Assembly (NCBI GenBank): GCA_017534535.1
Contig: JAFXVZ010000038.1
Coordinates: 1-64,000 of the forward strand
Reading direction: 5' to 3'
DNA length: 64,000 bases
From: Bacteroidaceae bacterium
GTDB taxonomy: Bacteria; Bacteroidota; Bacteroidia; Bacteroidales; Bacteroidaceae
The position numbers were made by a program, and so were the translations under genes. This document shows positions 4,949 through 12,270 of the stretch, piece after piece (position 1 is the first letter of the stretch; every line of letters starts with the position of its first letter). The notes below the pieces were generated by a model. The model had not been told where the DNA came from. It saw nothing but the letters and a program-made list of their open reading frames with translations, and made no database searches.

Positions 4949-5815
4949 TTATTTGCTATATTCCATAACCAAGTTTTGATTTATTAATCGAGGATCTTTT
5001 TCCATCATTTCTTTCACCGTCCCTATCCATTTGCTGTCTTTAGACAGCTCATGATTAGATAGAACTCGGTTTATATAATAGGATAAAGCACCAAAGTGCT
5101 TACCACCTTCTACTATTTCTTTGTTGACCTGATGAGATCTACAAGCCTCTATAAAAACTACTTTTCCAAGTGATGGTGAGGAAGGTATGTTATAGTAATT
5201 GCCTTTCTCTAACTTTTGAGGACGATAATATTTGCCACTACGTGTAAAACCAGCTTTCGTGCCTCGAATTACATCATCTTCAATTCCCATGGAAGCCTTT
5301 CCTGCATGGCATGCATCTATTACGACATATAGCATTCCTTTTGTACCGATTACCTTTCTAATTCTTGTGCAGTACTCATGCAGCTCGTCGTCTATCAAGT
5401 GGTTCTCTCCCTCGTATTTTCCCTTGGTATATTCAATCGGTGCGTCCACAGGCACAATAGATTCGTCCCAACCGTCATCCTCATCACCACTTTCGTCCTC
5501 GAATGGTTGTCCATGAGTGGAAAAGTGTAGATAAACAATGTCGCCAGTTTTACATTGAGATATCAACACTTTCAAGGCTTTATCAATCCCTGTCTTAGTA
5601 GCTCCTTTGTCATACAAGCATGATACAGATGCACCCCATTTTTTAAGGGTAGGACACAACATGTCAATGTCGTTTTTGCCATGAATATTATTCCATCCGC
5701 CATATTTATTGACACATTGATAGTCGGAAATACCAACTAGTAAGGCTCGTTTGTTTTGAGCCATAACCAGTTGTGTAAATATTGATATTGTCACGATAAA
5801 TAGTATTCTCTTCAT
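4949..5815 (-). CDS. Exported caspase-family (C14) peptidase
   Basis: A 288-residue caspase-fold protein. It begins with a signal peptide (MKRILFIVTISIFTQLVMAQ, likely cut near residue 20), then the metacaspase-like start KRALLVGISDYQ. The catalytic dyad is visible: His101 in FSTHGQ and Cys169 in IDACHAG. An acidic insert (FEDESGDEDDGWDES) follows the His, a typical position for specificity or Ca2+-binding loops. The signal peptide places it in the periplasm. It is last in the operon, 7 bases after the CHAT gene. Likely role: limited proteolysis within the CHAT/sigma pathway, as executor or as substrate of CHAT; inference. Confidence 0.9.
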   Translation of the reverse strand: MKRILFIVTISIFTQLVMAQNKRALLVGISDYQCVNKYGGWNNIHGKNDIDMLCPTLKKWGASVSCLYDKGATKTGIDKALKVLISQCKTGDIVYLHFSTHGQPFEDESGDEDDGWDESIVPVDAPIEYTKGKYEGENHLIDDELHEYCTRIRKVIGTKGMLYVVIDACHAGKASMGIEDDVIRGTKAGFTRSGKYYRPQKLEKGNYYNIPSSPSLGKVVFIEACRSHQVNKEIVEGGKHFGALSYYINRVLSNHELSKDSKWIGTVKEMMEKDPRLINQNLVMEYSK

Positions 5816-5822
5816 AACTGTT

Positions 5823-8800
5823 TCATTCTATTAAGATAAATGAATTACGAGTATCTTCATCAGCATTATCCATAGCTTCCCCAAACGAGTCATAGATGGA
5901 CTTTCCGATTGTAAGATTCTTGTAGAAATTAATCATGAATGATTGCGTTAGCTCATCGTCCACTTTCTTTAGACTTACAATCATATTTTTTGCACCTGCA
6001 ATCCGAAATGCTCGTTGAAGCCCCCAAACGCCATCTATATTGGTTTTACCTAAACCTGTATCGCAAGCCGATAACACAACGAGTTTTAGATTTGGGAAAT
6101 GTAGGTTCTCTATTTCATCACATGTCAGGATTCCATCATCCATATTGTCCAATGTGTCACCATTAAGTCCTCTGTTTGCACCAGTAAACAAAAGACCTGA
6201 TTCATAGTTATCAGAATTAAAGAATCCGTGTGTTGCAATGTGTATAATATCAATATTTTTCCTATTGAAATCCTTGATTACAGACTCAGTGGCATTGTTT
6301 TCCGTATATGCTTGTATTTTAATATTGTTTCGTTTGAACATATCAGAAATAGAGTCTATTTCAATCTTTGTTCCTGGTAAAGGTTGCCAGACAGTACCTC
6401 TGCTTTGTGAAGTTTCTGTTGTTGATTTATCATTGAATCGTGGATTTCCTATTGCTACGACATTCTTAATGTTAATTCTATTTTCTTTGCGAATGTTGCT
6501 TAAGTTTAGAACGCGATGAACCTCTATATTTGGAAAACTACTTCTAAAAAAAGACTCTATTGGAGTAATAGACATCGTTTCAGAAGGAGAAAAGAAAACT
6601 CTTTTTGCCCCCTTAATATTTGACGAAACTTTTTCTAAAGATTCATGAGATAATGTTTTAACCCCATCTGCAAAAGTAATTCGTTTGAGTTCTATAGGTT
6701 TATCCTTTTTGATAATATAAGCGTAAATAGTTGTAGTGTCAACATTGATAAAGTCTATAGCGACATCACCTTTTAAAAGTTTCTTCTTTACGTATGTTAT
6801 GTTACTATTGACAATATTTTTTAATCTTTTTGTTGATAAATCATTATATACGATACTACGGCTAATAGAATCCGGGCTACTTATAATATGATCAGAGACA
6901 CTAATTGCAGGTTCACTTCCTTCTTCGGTGTTTATTCCATGAGACTGAGATGTCTCTGAAACAAGAATGTTTTTCCCTAAACGCGACAGTTCGTCATTAA
7001 TTGCTTTTGTTGTTTGTGTTAAGCGACCTTTGCAGAAAAGAGAAGCATTCACTGCATTCTCTATAGATTTTGGTGTACAGGCATATTGGGCCAAACTTAT
7101 CTGCCAACCTTTGAGAAGTTGCAAAAAATTCACCCTTTCCTGGTCTGTTATATGATACCATTTTGATTCAACATCTTGGTACCATATAGATATATATTTA
7201 TCTTCCGTAATATCAAATTTGTCATATTCACCTAATTCCTTATATATATCCATAAGGTCTCCATATATGCGTGTCCCTGCAATAGAAAAATCTGAGGAAG
7301 ACAAATAACTTTCATAATAAGCAGCAGCTTTCTTTAAATCTTTTCTAGAATACTGCTCGTACAGTCCCAGATAATAATCTCTTTCATGTTCGCACTCTTG
7401 GGGCAATTTTGTTGATTTTATTACTTCTGCTAAACTATCTGCCTTGACATCATATCCAAATCTGCTATATGTATCTAATAATTGAAATCTTCGATAAATA
7501 TATGTGTTATTCATTTCTCCCTGCATTTGTTTTCTCATAGCCAAGGATTGCTCGGCAGCATAAACTAATTGAGGGTCATATCCATGAGATAACCCAAACA
7601 TTACAGTTCTATCGCAGAAATCTAGAAAATCTATACTAATGTCTTTGCTATTTCGAATATATACATCAGAAGCATGTTTATATAATAGAGCTGCCTGTTC
7701 AACATCCATCACCGAATTATAGTAATCGGCTATATCCGCTATAATGTGAGCATACATTATGCTGTCTGAAGTGTTATTATTATCAAATATTTTTAAGGCT
7801 TGTTGAAGTGCGGAAAACCTAAGATGTAAATCTGGAGCGACTTTTGCCTTATTCATATAATGGGTTATTTGTCGATTAACCAAAAGTTGAACATTTTTTG
7901 AAGTCTCATATTGTTCAGCCTCGCAGAAAGTCTTATATGCTTTATTACGGTCTATATTAGCAAGAATATTAGCTTTTGTGTTTAAAAACGTATAATGATC
8001 GATTGGGTTGTCTGTTTTTGGTTCATATTTATCAAGAAAATCCAATGCGACTTTTTCATTATTTTCATCAACCAAAAGAGATGATAAATTAACGGCATAT
8101 AATGATTTCGTATTCCTATCATCTGCCTTATCAATAGCCTTTATAAAGGAAATTACTGCAGGTTCATTCATGCCCAACGATTTATAACACATTGCTGCTT
8201 GATTGTATATCTTGTGTGAAAAAACATTTGTAGAATCTGTAGCCGAGAAATAGTCATTACATAAAGAAAGTGCCTTGTGATATTTATTTTGCCTACGCAA
8301 GCTAAATAAATATCCCGATAATGAATTAACATATTCCTCAGAGTCTATTCCGAATGCATTTTGAGAAACCTGTACAGCAAGACTATCATAATATGCGACT
8401 CTTTCTATGTCATTACGCCATAAATCATAGCGATTAGCTTGCTCTATCAATTCTTTGTAATAGACAGCAGATTTCTCTCCATAATAATTTTTTGTTGCTT
8501 CAATGTTTTTATCATAGAATAACAAAGCGTTTGTTTTATCAAATAATTCGTGTTCATAGTAGTAGGCAACCCACAACCAATTATGGGTTTTGAGGGTCGA
8601 TTTACTTCCATGAAAATGCCAATTCAAGTCATCTCGATTATTGCTTTGGGCAAAGGATATTGCTTTAATCAAGTAATCAACACAACGTTGAGGATTATTA
8701 TAGATGGAGAAACCTGTGGAATTCCATTTGTAATAATCAAATATATCCTCAATGCTGAAGTTGGAAAATCTTTTAGAGTTTTCAATGATGTCAAAAATAA

Positions 8801-9599
8801 AGTAGTCTTGATGTTTTGACGCTTCATGACATAGTGTCTGTATGTCCAAGAATCTATTATCCTCAAATTCTATTATACATTTTGCGATATCAGACTTGTT
8901 CCTATCGGAAAGAATCTCGTAATTGGTATTTAAGAAATAGTTAATTATAGTCCTCTTGTCTTGATGTGAAATTTCTGTATCACTAATTAGTTTGTCAAAA
9001 AAAGCTAAAAAGTCATTGTTTTTATGATGCGTTATATACAATTCTGCCAGGACACAATATGCTCCGGCTAATTCATTTGAGTTATTTGATTTCTTGGCAA
9101 AATCAAAACGCTTTTGTCCCCAATATATTGCTTTATTAAAATCGCCTAAATAACTGTATACATCAGAAAGTCCAACAGTAAATATATATTCGTTTGTTTC
9201 AGCTTGATGATAGTGCATTTCCAGAGATTTAAGGAAACTAATGAGATGCTTACGTTTCTTTATTCTAACATGATTATGTGCACTTTCAGTTAAAACGACA
9301 CTGCAAGCATCAATTAGGTTCCTGTATTGCATAGATGTTACTCCATATTTGTTTTCTATTTGTGGAATGATTGTGTTTAGCCGAGTAGCGATACTGTCAT
9401 AATATGAAACCATTAAAGAATCTTTCAGGTTATTAGCAACAAGATTGAGCAAAGCGTTTTCATATACAGTACTAGCAATGCCAACAGACGCTTCTGTAAA
9501 TTTTAACCACTGCCAATCTTTTTCAAAAGACTGAGCCCGAACAATACAACAATTATTCAGAAGAATAATGACCAATATGAGTATCTTGTTTATTTTCAT
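5823..9599 (-). CDS. Exported TPR-CHAT protease-like protein, 1258 aa
   Basis: A large protein with a signal peptide (residues 1-22, ILVIILLNNCCIVRAQ), about 900 residues of tetratricopeptide-like helical repeats, and a C-terminal CHAT domain (about 950-1258). The CHAT dyad is present: His1124 in IATHGFF and Cys1179 in LSACDTG, followed by the usual GVWGLQRAFRIAGA and DDELTQSFMINFY segments. CHAT is a caspase-related (clan CD) peptidase fold, and the TPR array usually senses a partner or ligand. TPR-CHAT is the protease subunit of type III-E CRISPR Craspase, but no CRISPR genes occur here. It overlaps the AbiH-family gene by 4 bases (ATGA), so the two are translationally coupled. The signal peptide indicates periplasmic action. 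Confidence 0.9.
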   Translation of the reverse strand: MKINKILILVIILLNNCCIVRAQSFEKDWQWLKFTEASVGIASTVYENALLNLVANNLKDSLMVSYYDSIATRLNTIIPQIENKYGVTSMQYRNLIDACSVVLTESAHNHVRIKKRKHLISFLKSLEMHYHQAETNEYIFTVGLSDVYSYLGDFNKAIYWGQKRFDFAKKSNNSNELAGAYCVLAELYITHHKNNDFLAFFDKLISDTEISHQDKRTIINYFLNTNYEILSDRNKSDIAKCIIEFEDNRFLDIQTLCHEASKHQDYFIFDIIENSKRFSNFSIEDIFDYYKWNSTGFSIYNNPQRCVDYLIKAISFAQSNNRDDLNWHFHGSKSTLKTHNWLWVAYYYEHELFDKTNALLFYDKNIEATKNYYGEKSAVYYKELIEQANRYDLWRNDIERVAYYDSLAVQVSQNAFGIDSEEYVNSLSGYLFSLRRQNKYHKALSLCNDYFSATDSTNVFSHKIYNQAAMCYKSLGMNEPAVISFIKAIDKADDRNTKSLYAVNLSSLLVDENNEKVALDFLDKYEPKTDNPIDHYTFLNTKANILANIDRNKAYKTFCEAEQYETSKNVQLLVNRQITHYMNKAKVAPDLHLRFSALQQALKIFDNNNTSDSIMYAHIIADIADYYNSVMDVEQAALLYKHASDVYIRNSKDISIDFLDFCDRTVMFGLSHGYDPQLVYAAEQSLAMRKQMQGEMNNTYIYRRFQLLDTYSRFGYDVKADSLAEVIKSTKLPQECEHERDYYLGLYEQYSRKDLKKAAAYYESYLSSSDFSIAGTRIYGDLMDIYKELGEYDKFDITEDKYISIWYQDVESKWYHITDQERVNFLQLLKGWQISLAQYACTPKSIENAVNASLFCKGRLTQTTKAINDELSRLGKNILVSETSQSHGINTEEGSEPAISVSDHIISSPDSISRSIVYNDLSTKRLKNIVNSNITYVKKKLLKGDVAIDFINVDTTTIYAYIIKKDKPIELKRITFADGVKTLSHESLEKVSSNIKGAKRVFFSPSETMSITPIESFFRSSFPNIEVHRVLNLSNIRKENRINIKNVVAIGNPRFNDKSTTETSQSRGTVWQPLPGTKIEIDSISDMFKRNNIKIQAYTENNATESVIKDFNRKNIDIIHIATHGFFNSDNYESGLLFTGANRGLNGDTLDNMDDGILTCDEIENLHFPNLKLVVLSACDTGLGKTNIDGVWGLQRAFRIAGAKNMIVSLKKVDDELTQSFMINFYKNLTIGKSIYDSFGEAMDNADEDTRNSFILIE

Positions 9600-10558
9600 A
9601 CGTGTATATCAAGATATTTAATCCCATTAATCATTGTAATGTTTTGTATATCATATCTTATGACGAAATCCATTAATCGCCTTCTATCATCTTGCGAATA
9701 CCATGAAATCACCCAATGTGTTTCTGGCTTTGTTCGCCTAATAATTTTCTCTAAATAAGGCATATCTATGGATGAAAACGAGAATCCATACACATATATC
9801 CTTTCGACATCAAGGATATCATTAAAGAATTGTTGATTCTTTTCTATACACCCCTCTACATCTTTCTTCAAAGACACTATAGATTCTAACGAGCTCAAAG
9901 TTGCCAGATCTTTATGTTTTGGTGTAACTAACTGAATCCTAGTCAGCATATTTAGCTTCTTATTCCAGACTTCACCTATTCGTGGTTCGTGACATTTAAG
10001 CATATCATTCAACTCTTCTTCTCCTAATCCGTGACCAACTACCATTGAATCCTTGTCATCAATTACGCCATGGATATGATAAACACGCTTGGCATCTATC
10101 TCGTAGATGTCCTCAAGAGTCTTGGTATAGTTAAAAGTGAGGAATATGCTACCTTCGCTTGGAAATAGTATCTTTTTTTCTTGGGGTCTCTTCTCATACG
10201 CCTCTGACAACCATTTCTGAAAGTCATGTCTCAAAGAATCTTTAATACTGTCAAATTCTTCCATAACTTTCCGAGAGGTAAACTCTGTTTTTTCTTCTAT
10301 CGAACCTTCTTTAATATATTCAGGGTCATATAAGTTCCCTTTTTTGTTGGCATAATAGCTAATGTTTAATTGGGCTAGGCTATTCTCAAAATCTCTCCAC
10401 CAATTATATTCCCAGGCACTATTATAAACCTGAGTTAATTTAAAGAAAAGACCTGCATCGTTTTTCTTCACCCATTTCATGAAATCCTCAAAACCACACC
10501 GAATGTCATGATGCAGGTCAAAACCATTACCAATTATGTATAGGTTCTTGTATATCAT
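9596..10558 (-). CDS. AbiH-family protein
   Basis: A 320-residue protein with the signature of the phage abortive-infection family AbiH. It has an N-terminal nucleotide-binding-like IIGNGFDLHHD (residues 8-18), FLTFNYTKTLE in the middle, VYHIHGVIDD and VVGHGLGEEEL, and a C-terminal IYVYGFSFSSIDMPYL. The order of the GNGFD, FNYT and HIHG motifs recalls SIR2-like folds, so a nucleotide such as NAD may be bound; that is inference. No signal peptide: cytoplasmic. It lies between the anti-sigma-like gene and the CHAT gene. AbiH in Lactococcus was described as a phage abortive-infection protein, which gives the operon a defence flavour. Confidence 0.88.
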   Translation of the reverse strand: MIYKNLYIIGNGFDLHHDIRCGFEDFMKWVKKNDAGLFFKLTQVYNSAWEYNWWRDFENSLAQLNISYYANKKGNLYDPEYIKEGSIEEKTEFTSRKVMEEFDSIKDSLRHDFQKWLSEAYEKRPQEKKILFPSEGSIFLTFNYTKTLEDIYEIDAKRVYHIHGVIDDKDSMVVGHGLGEEELNDMLKCHEPRIGEVWNKKLNMLTRIQLVTPKHKDLATLSSLESIVSLKKDVEGCIEKNQQFFNDILDVERIYVYGFSFSSIDMPYLEKIIRRTKPETHWVISWYSQDDRRRLMDFVIRYDIQNITMINGIKYLDIHV

Positions 10559-10593
10559 AGAAAATGTTAATTATGAGCCATTATTGCCTCTCA

Positions 10594-11295
10594 TTATCTA
10601 TTTAAGACCTCTCTTATCTTATCACCAAGAGCCGTTCCTTCAGGATATACTTGTTTCATTTCCTTCAGGATTTCTTTGGCCTTGGCTTTCTCATAGTTCT
10701 CCAAATAGCCTATAGCAAGATTCCACCCAATATACGGAGAATAATCTGTATAATCATTGTAGGACTCCTGTTTTGACAGCTCCCATAACGTTTTGAGCCG
10801 AGAAGTGGTATTATCCAAATCTCTGTTTTGTGCTACATTATCGAAGAGAGCCTTCAGCTCTGATTCTACATCGGTGTTTAATTCTCCTCTTACAATAGAT
10901 GAAGTTGGAAATGCATTAGCATATTCTTTTCCCAAGTTTGTTGTATCGTAATAGTCGTAGGATTTGAAACCGACAAATACAATAAACACCACTGATGCAG
11001 CAATAGCAAGCCATCTAGTTGAGCGATTCTTTCTGGCAGTTACCCGGTTGGCTATATTTCGTATCGTTTGCTCATCAGTTCGTTGGAACATTTCTTTCAG
11101 TTCTTCGTCAACTTGCTTCATCCCCTTTACAAGTCTTGCTTGGGCTATGGCCTGATTACGCAGTTCCTCATTATTCTTCAGTTCTATCTGGAAAGCATCT
11201 TCTTCATCAGCCTCCATAAGCCCTTGCATAAAACGACTTATTCGCTCGTCATTTACCAAATCTTTTTCTTGGATTATATTCTCTTTTCCATTCAT
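10594..11295 (-). CDS. Membrane anti-sigma-like protein with periplasmic TPR-like domain
   Basis: 233 residues: a cytoplasmic acidic helical region (1-90, including ERISRFMQGLMEADEEDAF, the usual look of Bacteroidota anti-sigma N-termini), one membrane helix (95-110, WLAIAASVVFIVFVGF), and a periplasmic domain (111-233) whose end resembles a TPR (GWNLAIGYLENYEKAKAKEIL). It follows the sigma gene by 12 bases, the standard position of a cognate anti-sigma factor. With two exported clan CD proteases in the same operon, its periplasmic half is an obvious candidate substrate. No zinc-binding HxxxCxxC motif is seen, so it is not a ZAS-type anti-sigma. Confidence 0.75.
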   Translation of the reverse strand: MNGKENIIQEKDLVNDERISRFMQGLMEADEEDAFQIELKNNEELRNQAIAQARLVKGMKQVDEELKEMFQRTDEQTIRNIANRVTARKNRSTRWLAIAASVVFIVFVGFKSYDYYDTTNLGKEYANAFPTSSIVRGELNTDVESELKALFDNVAQNRDLDNTTSRLKTLWELSKQESYNDYTDYSPYIGWNLAIGYLENYEKAKAKEILKEMKQVYPEGTALGDKIREVLNR

Positions 11296-11307
11296 AACGA
11301 CTCTGTT

Positions 11308-11925
11308 TTAGAATAATGATTTGCTCATTTCGCTATACCTTATACGGAATTTCTCACAGCAGCGGTGTTTCGTAACCTTAACAGCATTCTCGCTCGCATA
11401 GTTAAACATTTCTGCAAGCATCTTCATTGAGTGACCATCGCCATAGTAGCCCCATAAAAGTTCGTTACAAGGTGAAGGTAAGTTTTTAACAATATCCCTT
11501 ACTAGAGCTTCTTTCTCCTTTTGAATATTCTCATGGGCATCTTCCAAAGAAAGAATCCTTTCAACCTGATCTTCTTGGTAATCATGGTGATCCCTATTTG
11601 GATTTATCTCATATGGAGTCGTCACATATCTACTCTTGAATCTTAATAGCTCCATGGTCTTATTACGACAGATTGTCATGAAGTAAGTTGAACTTGACAT
11701 GCCTGTACTGTCGAGGTTCACTTTGTTTTCTTTATAATTTTTCCACAAAATGACTAAAGAATCTTGGAATACGTCAGCACATTCATCCTCTGACAAAGAA
11801 TATCGACTAATCAGATATGCCCTCGTCTTTTGCCATTGTTTTTTGGCAAAATCATCAAGAGTTACTTCTATCTCATCCTTTTTCTTTCGTAAGCTAATAA
11901 GCATAACACATATTGAGGATTTCAT
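11308..11925 (-). CDS. ECF-type RNA polymerase sigma factor
   Basis: 205 residues. Region 2 is seen at ~25-105 (ECADVFQDSLVILWKNY, then STYFMTICRNKTMELLRF), and region 4 at ~145-200 (LVRDIVKNLPSPCNELLWG, MKMLAEMFNYASENAVKVTKHRCCEKFR, the HTH that reads the -35 element). It heads the AbiH/CHAT/caspase operon and is preceded by a housekeeping TATATTTG box, so it is probably made constitutively and kept inactive by the next gene's product. The start at 11925 is the first in frame after that box; an internal Met at residue 8 is an alternative. It is the likely reader of promoter copies A-D. Confidence 0.9.
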   Translation of the reverse strand: MKSSICVMLISLRKKKDEIEVTLDDFAKKQWQKTRAYLISRYSLSEDECADVFQDSLVILWKNYKENKVNLDSTGMSSSTYFMTICRNKTMELLRFKSRYVTTPYEINPNRDHHDYQEDQVERILSLEDAHENIQKEKEALVRDIVKNLPSPCNELLWGYYGDGHSMKMLAEMFNYASENAVKVTKHRCCEKFRIRYSEMSKSLF

Positions 11926-11943: not shown

Positions 11944-11951
11944 CAAATATA
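11944..11951 (-). promoter_or_regulatory. -7 box of the sigma-CHAT-caspase operon
   Basis: TATATTTG on the minus strand matches the Bacteroidota TAnnTTTG consensus and lies 18 bases before the sigma gene's start codon. No TGTTAACC/TGTCAT element is present here, so the operon itself is not obviously autoregulated. Confidence 0.6.
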
Positions 11952-12185: not shown

Positions 12186-12196
12186 GATTTTCAGTG

Positions 12197-12270
12197 TGGA
12201 CCAGCCAGGGCTTGAACCTGGGACCTCCAGATTATGAGTCTGTTGCTCTAACCAACTGAGCTACAAGTCC
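12197..12270 (-). tRNA. tRNA-Met (CAT), elongator type
   Basis: 74 bases fold as a cloverleaf: acceptor GGACTTG/CTGGTCC (one T-T mismatch), anticodon stem CAGA/TCTG with loop CTCATAA, and a T arm containing GGTTCAAGC. The anticodon CAT plus a normal G1-C72 pair indicates elongator Met rather than initiator; a lysidine-modified Ile tRNA cannot be fully excluded. CCA is not encoded. Its 3' end faces the accessory block. Confidence 0.9.

Follow-up and report, generated by a model that had tools for sequence, protein, structure and literature searches.

We propose that five genes at positions 4949 to 11925 of contig JAFXVZ010000038.1 from a Bacteroidaceae bacterium (assembly GCA_017534535.1) probably encode a periplasmic regulated-proteolysis circuit, in which a TPR-CHAT protease would cut a single-pass anti-sigma factor after Arg136 and thereby start the release of an extracytoplasmic function (ECF) sigma factor. 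The first 64,000 nucleotides of the contig, here called the window, were analysed; the assembly has 2.7 Mb and is 89% complete. An initial annotation had described five tightly packed minus-strand genes with gaps of 7-35 bases and a four-base overlap. A check of the open reading frames (ORFs) confirmed all five, their strand and their coordinates, in the order sigma, anti-sigma, AbiH, CHAT, caspase and with intergenic distances of 12, 35, -4 and 7 bases. The ECF sigma, AbiH, TPR-CHAT and caspase-fold calls were borne out by family profiles, and both catalytic dyads were found intact, as had been described (His1124/Cys1179 in CHAT, His101/Cys169 in the caspase). The genes are the following:

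11308..11925, minus strand: ECF sigma factor, 205 amino acids (NCBIfam ECF superfamily TIGR02937, E-value 2.6e-13, over the cut-off, versus 2.7e-4 for Pfam)
10594..11295, minus strand: single-pass membrane anti-sigma-like protein, 233 amino acids (topology and AlphaFold model)
9596..10558, minus strand: AbiH-family protein, 320 amino acids, putative accessory cargo, with a four-base overlap with the CHAT gene (Pfam AbiH, 5.5e-50)
5823..9599, minus strand: TPR-CHAT protease, predicted to be exported, 1258 amino acids (Pfam CHAT, 2e-46)
4949..5815, minus strand: metacaspase-like protease, predicted to be exported, 288 amino acids (Pfam Peptidase_C14, 8.7e-16)

Covariation of the anti-sigma site with the CHAT pocket

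Two sets of relatives were compared with the window, and genes were counted as nearby or linked when they lay within five ORFs. The caspase set comprised the best 80 of 351 caspase relatives from a genome-contig scan; the caspase ORF was called in 76 of these loci and missed in four, and the set includes repeats (identical anti-sigmas in L050/L051 and in L084/L085). A search with an anti-sigma profile matched 98 of 296 genomes of the phylum (E-value 1e-5) and 243 of 396 genomes of the class (1e-10), and many of the weaker matches span the N-terminal part only. The 120 loci of the wide set were taken from the upper parts of these lists, were mostly full-length matches and were chosen without regard to their neighbours; all belong to genomes of the same class. 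They yielded 115 anti-sigmas in 114 loci, and six loci gave none at the cut-off.

Signal peptides and transmembrane segments were called with crude hydropathy rules of our own. One transmembrane segment was found in 69 of 71 anti-sigma homologues. The AlphaFold model of the window's protein (56 alignment rows, pLDDT, the predicted local distance difference test, 84.5) consists of helices at residues 10-87, predicted to be cytoplasmic, followed by the transmembrane segment and by periplasmic helices at 141-232. Residues 134-140 form a coil that parts the transmembrane helix from the periplasmic helices, with a confidence of 71 for the ten-residue block versus 91 and 94 for its neighbours. The predicted cleavage site, Arg136-Gly137, lies in this coil. 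In the caspase-linked anti-sigmas Arg136 was kept in 73 of 76 and Gly137 in 67 of 76, and Arg136 is the best-conserved residue of the protein apart from Met1 (n=76). The first 40 loci from other orders had Arg (33) or Lys (3) at position 136, and the next residue was small (Gly 25, Ser 11, Asn 3). In the window, the sigma gene adjoins that of a putative inhibitor which spans the membrane once and carries an outer domain, as in regulated proteolysis of transmembrane anti-sigmas.

By the same rules, signal-peptide-like N-termini were called for most CHATs (72 of 89 in the caspase set, 76 of 94 in the wide set) and for 70 of 81 caspase homologues, but for none of 73 sigma factors. A C-terminal transmembrane segment was called for 76 of the 94 wide-set CHATs and for none of the 89 in the caspase set. 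The N-termini would thus place the first protease on the outer side. Because both proteases have such N-termini and the anti-sigma has one transmembrane segment, proteolysis should be periplasmic and face the outer part of the inhibitor. The initial annotation had made no mention of these N-termini. The CHAT-end profile matched the TPR-CHAT chains 7x8a (2e-10) and 7y9x (named Csx29; 4.8e-5). To our knowledge, CHAT proteases are common in bacteria, and substrates are known for very few of them. The relevant segments and residues of the two proteins are:

10966..11022, minus strand: anti-sigma transmembrane segment, residues 92-110 (hydropathy; helix 93-125 in the model)
10885..10890, minus strand: predicted anti-sigma cleavage site between Arg136 and Gly137 (conservation, coil, covariation with the CHAT pocket)
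9531..9599, minus strand: signal-peptide-like N-terminus of CHAT, residues 1-23 (crude in-house rule)
6360..6362, minus strand: CHAT Glu1080 (LPxSxxE motif), predicted S1 pocket residue (top covarying column)
6228..6230, minus strand: CHAT catalytic His1124
6063..6071, minus strand: CHAT Ser1177 (pocket, two before Cys) and catalytic Cys1179 (dyad; covariation)
5955..5957, minus strand: CHAT Asp1215 (SLWxVxD motif; SLKKVDD in the window), predicted pocket residue (covariation)

The first comparison used 78 anti-sigmas from other orders with a catalytic CHAT nearby. Arg136 was combined with Asp1215 in 57 cases and with another residue in none, and residues other than Arg were combined with Asp1215 in six cases and with another residue in 15. 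Because position 1215 was a choice made by eye, every usable CHAT column (n=251) was then scanned against the Arg/non-Arg class; column 1080 ranked first, 1215 second and 1177 third. In the reverse direction, position 136 ranked first among 191 anti-sigma columns scanned against Asp1215. When the Met clade described below was thinned to one row, 1080 was first, 1177 second and 1215 fourth.

One duplicate CHAT row (L200, with Lys136 and Glu1080) was then dropped, leaving 77 pairs. Both caspase-bearing loci of the wide set lack a CHAT, so that all 77 pairs are caspase-free. Arg136 occurred with Glu1080 in 55 pairs and without it in two, and non-Arg sites occurred with Glu1080 in one pair and without it in 19 (Fisher 8e-15, with kinship ignored). 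Among 69,762 inter-protein column pairs, 136-1080 ranked first (z 9.6), 136-1215 fourth and 136-1177 eighth. The pair 136-1080 was again first of 61,517 when the caspase set was added (145 rows), and first of 68,838 without the ten-row Met clade (67 rows). In 15 random re-pairings, the maximum z was 4.9-6.2, versus 9.3 for the true pairing. Eight genomes contain both Arg and non-Arg pairs, and in seven of them the non-Arg pair alone lacks Glu1080, with L230 as the exception. One of these seven non-Arg pairs, L224, has Asp as its pocket residue 1080 and a site that could not be aligned.

From their position in the fold and from caspase structures, residues 1080, 1177 and 1215 would form the S1 pocket. 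The pocket changes are in part chemically sensible: Arg sites went with Glu1080, all 13 anti-sigmas with Met at the site were accompanied by CHATs that have an acid at neither 1080 nor 1177 (one with a gap at 1080), and two of four Lys sites had Asp1177 (L153, L177). Ten CHATs form the Met clade (L169, L173, L176, L187, L206, L222, L225, L235, L236 and L244); the neighbouring anti-sigmas have Met in place of Arg, mostly as DPGLPxxMS, with the predicted cut before Ser.

Several results weigh against a cut by CHAT after Arg136. The other two Lys sites did not fit, since L162 has an acid at neither 1080 nor 1177 and L200 has Glu1080, and L230, L234 and L239 are exceptions to the 136-1080 rule. 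Removal of the Met clade lowered 136-1215 to rank 44 (previously 4) and 136-1177 to rank 10 (previously 8), and addition of the caspase set placed them at 28 and 23, respectively. On the tree, residue 136 (P1) and Glu1080 each change eight times, but well-supported branches give only two to three independent pairs, none of them discordant, and a sign test cannot reach 0.05 because these are too few. In the caspase-linked set (n=67, including up to five repeats), 64 pairs had Arg and Glu, one Arg without Glu, and two Glu without Arg. The site is thus near-constant there, so that the window's own branch offers no covariation test and the mechanism is carried over to the window from its caspase-free relatives. 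In the available part of PMC9729208, the residue equated with separase D2151, the reader of Arg, aligns to Gln1219 of the window; the acid is absent from this position of the window CHAT, acids are found at 1080 and 1215 instead, and column 1219 ranks only 61 of 251 in the scan. Asp1215 was rejected as the separase P1-Arg reader, as that source puts the reader four positions further on. Finally, the protein was assigned as an anti-sigma from its gene order and topology; profile matches were sub-threshold (DUF3379, 1.3e-4; putative anti-sigmaE, 2.1e-4), and the fold search gave no match reaching an E-value of 0.001, TPR folds being among the non-significant matches.

Recurrence of the gene set and accessory genes

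The linkage of the genes is not due to chance, since it recurs in other loci, and the gene set recurs in gut and rumen Bacteroidales. In the 76 caspase loci, a sigma gene was nearby in 58, an anti-sigma gene in 60, a CHAT gene in 62, and all three in 49; of the 47 loci flanked on each side by more than 4 kb, 37 had the full set. The recurrent unit is caspase-sigma-anti-sigma-CHAT, usually in this order and without AbiH. Within the genus, 18 of 149 genomes, the window's included, matched the caspase, and the 19 other caspase places fetched had a labelled sigma gene near in 17 and CHAT near in 18. Among these places, L037 stops at a contig end, L027 has an unlabelled ORF of 202 amino acids in the sigma place, and the caspase of L043 contains a stop. 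The CHAT search matched 26 of the 149 genomes, and many of these matches are other TPR-CHATs without an adjacent sigma or caspase gene (e.g. L012-L017). The nearest named loci, with a caspase 100% identical to that of the window, are two Prevotella sp. records (L050 and L051).

In the wide set, 101 of 115 anti-sigmas had an adjacent sigma gene and 80 a CHAT gene nearby, and only two, both without CHAT, had a caspase gene nearby. A caspase-free sigma-anti-sigma-CHAT version is thus present in other orders of the class, and we infer that these three genes form the more ancient core, to which the caspase was added largely within the Bacteroidales. No description of the gene set was found in open-licence PMC papers, a weak absence, as subscription literature lies mostly outside that search.

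Variants of the layout were also observed. In L071, L074, L076 and L125 (the last near a contig end), the caspase lies beside CHAT with no sigma or anti-sigma gene labelled near, as a sigma-free protease pair. Seven loci from other orders (L146, L148, L157, L158, L159, L166 and L168) encode a secreted protein of about 650 amino acids beside CHAT and next to the sigma-anti-sigma pair. Close relatives of the module occur in L053, L070, L112 and L129, which are titled Lachnospiraceae or Erysipelotrichales and are probably misbinned contigs.

The initial annotation had included AbiH in a five-gene unit, and here the search of other loci did not follow it. AbiH was rejected as a core part, as it occurred in two of the 76 caspase loci (L050 and L051), whose caspases are identical to that of the window. 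Relatives of AbiH were found in five of 149 genomes of the genus, the window's included; in G044 and G111 they and the module are on different contigs, and the caspase search matched nothing in G123 or G132. The AbiH protein itself also matched SIR2_2 below the cut-off (7.8e-4).

Accessory genes were surveyed in 71 operons (some of them repeats) that had caspase, sigma and anti-sigma genes in one run. They contained 72 distinct non-core ORFs, 18 between core genes and 54 at the ends, with matches to DUF2971 (4), SIR2_2 (2), U49/Lit (2), DUF3990 (2), AbiH (1), RhuM (1) and SLFN_AlbA_2 (1). As a control, 72 ORFs were drawn at random from 351 flanking ORFs; none of the named families was among the 25 families listed of 76 for the control, although other defence-type matches were present. 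PADLOC families numbered 87 for the cargo versus 43 for the control flanks. Because only the families listed (25 per table) were compared, a defence enrichment of the cargo is suggested, not proven. In some operons, AbiH, SIR2, Lit or DUF2971 genes are swappable cargo, which would hint at a role in defence. In two loci, a small ORF and then a DUF3990-type protein follow soon after the anti-sigma gene, in a toxin-antitoxin-like arrangement (L099:12184-12923 and L100:12125-12855).

An ECF motif was not clearly discernible in the upstream regions of 72 module operons; when dyads with long A/T runs were set aside, the best one was present in 7 of 72, versus 4-5 in shuffled sequences. Several of these regions contain a TAnnTTTG-like box and a few contain GGTAAC. 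In the window, TATATTTG at 11944..11951 (minus strand), upstream of the sigma gene, resembles the Bacteroidota housekeeping -7 box in sequence. A tRNA-Met gene (12196-12270) lies on the same strand directly upstream of the operon and is a possible integration site. Positions 550-2598 of the window encode a PIF1-like helicase with a weak TPR-type tail. Within the fetched stretches, such a helicase was also found in nine caspase-set loci (L040, L050, L051, L055, L058, L062, L073, L081 and L098) and in none of the 120 wide-set loci.

The metacaspase-like protein

The caspase-like protein has the features of a metacaspase-like C14 protease, namely a caspase fold, a His/Cys dyad and acidic S1 residues; the S1-lining residues are presumably those of metacaspase structures, from which they were taken. 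Its annotated positions are:

5759..5815, minus strand: signal-peptide-like N-terminus, residues 1-19 (crude rule of our own)
5513..5515, minus strand: catalytic His101 (invariant in 55 of 55 aligned)
5309..5311, minus strand: catalytic Cys169 (invariant in 55 of 55 aligned)
5261..5266, minus strand: Arg184-Gly185, which may be a processing site or a structural motif (invariant in 55 of 55)

Asp49, Ser99 and Asp167 are likewise invariant (55 of 55). The best-scoring solved sequences were metacaspases, and the nearest folds were GSU0716, metacaspases and MALT1. Metacaspases and MALT1 prefer cleavage after Arg or Lys, and by analogy with these nearest relatives the same preference is suggested for the window's protein. 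Arg184-Gly185 marks its family, because it is invariant there, whereas among 29 other Bacteroidota C14 proteins only 5 have it and 11 show a gap at this place. It could be a CHAT cut site or a self-processing site. In the model, however, Arg184 lies within an ordered stretch (block confidence 91), which counts against a processing site, and the low-confidence linker comprises residues 171-180. Caspase relatives in viral contigs gave four pattern matches, none of which was confirmed, and none were found in phage records. Six plasmid records (Nostoc, Sinorhizobium, Sulfitobacter, Rhizobium) contained relatives of at most 32% identity.

Proposed circuit, rival explanations and known systems

In the circuit that we consider likely, the sigma factor would be held by the single-pass anti-sigma. 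An envelope signal would switch on the exported TPR-CHAT through its TPR part, and the protease would cut the periplasmic loop of the anti-sigma after Arg136, the step that the covariation supports. The remaining steps would follow known sigma-E-type pathways: an intramembrane protease, together with proteases of the cytoplasm, would finish the inhibitor and free the sigma factor; an M50 protease is present in the genome. The freed sigma factor would raise its regulon, perhaps including its own operon. The metacaspase-like protein, which also looks exported, is probably another protease of the response that depends on CHAT; it would act downstream or in parallel and is perhaps activated by CHAT at its invariant Arg-Gly. 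AbiH would be cargo, occupying a place that other operons fill with SIR2, DUF2971 or further genes. All steps of this circuit are inferred from sequence. A wider version, which is possible but on balance doubtful, would have TPR-CHAT cut two partners between Arg and Gly, the anti-sigma at Arg136-Gly137 for transcription and the caspase at Arg184-Gly185 for the second protease. Abortive-infection genes would then be interchangeable cytoplasmic cargo, and residues 1080, 1177 and 1215 would be a CHAT specificity code across the class that separates parallel pathways in one cell.

The covariation also bears on who cuts the anti-sigma. It is decidedly unlikely that the metacaspase-like protein, and not CHAT, cuts at Arg136, with CHAT acting upstream or elsewhere. 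The nearest sequences and folds (metacaspases; GSU0716, metacaspases and MALT1), their Arg/Lys preference and the invariant Asp49, Ser99 and Asp167 would suit a caspase as cutter, but other orders, in which a caspase is near only 2 of 115 anti-sigmas, retain the Arg site in 33 of the first 40 loci. As the main cutter the caspase was rejected, because the Arg site and the covariation persist in caspase-free loci. It is also quite unlikely that CHAT and caspase are mere outputs of the sigma factor that never touch the anti-sigma, with shared ancestry as the source of the covariation. Many ECF operons encode their outputs, the genus contains TPR-CHATs without a sigma or caspase gene beside them (L012-L017, L019-L021), and there are few independent changes on supported branches. 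Shared ancestry, however, should lift all column pairs alike, whereas 136-1080 is first of 69,762 and holds without the Met clade, and paralogous pairs of the same genome match individually in seven of eight genomes.

An anti-phage system with AbiH as the effector and the other genes as its switch would agree with the four-base overlap of AbiH with CHAT and with the SIR2_2, DUF2971, RhuM, Lit/U49, SLFN_AlbA_2 or DUF3990 genes of other operons. We regard it as unlikely: such types account for only 13 of the 72 extra ORFs of the 71 operons, the 72 control ORFs also have defence-type matches, and caspase relatives were neither found in phage records nor confirmed in viral contigs. A protease circuit of the type III CRISPR type, with its CRISPR part elsewhere in the genome, is extremely improbable. 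The sigma factor does match the type III-E sigma model at 6.2e-8, which is below the cut-off, but the genome (89% complete) yielded no Cas1, both proteases look exported, and no cas family was among the 25 cargo families listed, apart from weak helix-turn-helix matches of L079 to CARF, Csa3 and WYL.

The initial annotation had proposed a CRISPR-free circuit with release of the sigma factor by CHAT and/or caspase activity. A circuit of this kind, with the anti-sigma as the target of CHAT, is supported by the covariation of position 136 with the pocket and by the search of this genome (89% complete), which found no Cas1. Of the parallel that it drew with Craspase, the action of a CHAT on a sigma inhibitor is retained, and the cytoplasmic site is replaced by a periplasmic one because of the signal peptides and the membrane inhibitor. 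A cytoplasmic Craspase analogue was rejected on the signal peptides of CHAT and caspase; we know of no exported protease or transmembrane inhibitor in Craspase. The SAVED-CHAT/PCaspase cascade of Steens et al. 2024 reportedly includes a caspase-fold protease and is said to be cytoplasmic. In the RsiW pathway, the first protease is PrsW.

The following comparisons draw on the available parts of the sources. Type III-B SAVED-CHAT/PCaspase shares a CHAT protease in a proteolytic cascade, but is activated by cyclic nucleotides and linked to CRISPR. In the CalpL/CalpT/CalpS system, a protease also cuts an anti-sigma and frees an ECF sigma factor, but this protease is of the Lon family, cA4-activated (cyclic tetra-adenylate) and CRISPR-linked. 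Craspase is the type III-E system Cas7-11/Csx29/Csx30/CASP-sigma (PMC10028731, PMC11106740), in which a TPR-CHAT protease cuts an ECF sigma inhibitor within a flexible loop, as predicted for the window, whose CHAT has the His/Cys dyad. In contrast, Craspase is RNA-guided, its sites (between Leu and Asp, Met and Lys, and Ala and Ser) are not conserved (PMC11106740), and in one of its TPR-CHAT chains, 7x8a, the residue aligned with Asp1215 is Ser. This Ser together with cleavage after Leu, Met or Ala (PMC11106740) fits the pocket trend, in one lineage only. As for Cas7-11 and a CRISPR array, no Cas1 was found in the genome and no such family among the operon or downstream genes; arrays were not searched for.

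The RseA/DegS sigma-E and RsiW pathways share a single-pass anti-sigma that is cut to begin sigma release, but in RseA/DegS the first protease is DegS, not a separase-like CHAT (PMC10028731). Predicted caspase systems coupled to ECF sigma factors are also found in the caspase/EACC2 neighbourhoods of Kaur et al. 2021 (PMC8195603), which contain ECF sigma and DUF1822 TPR genes; these are centred on TRADD-N/EACC2 domains, and the available text mentions no CHAT beside sigma, no anti-sigma and no cut site. ECF54 sigma factors have CHAT genes in their neighbourhood and proteolytic control has been proposed for them, but they are said to work without an anti-sigma, and the accessible part of the source gives no site or test (PMC8999054). 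By analogy, the circuit would work like Craspase-sigma and DegS-RseA; it is a member of neither, because no Cas1 was found and the first protease or the place of action differs.

If the circuit is as proposed, it could be a new way for gut and rumen bacteria to sense envelope trouble, with Craspase-like logic moved from CRISPR into the envelope of these abundant bacteria. Sequence alone names a candidate substrate, cut site and reading residues, each of which is open to a single-substitution test. The circuit would also give a function to exported bacterial caspase homologues beside sigma factors.

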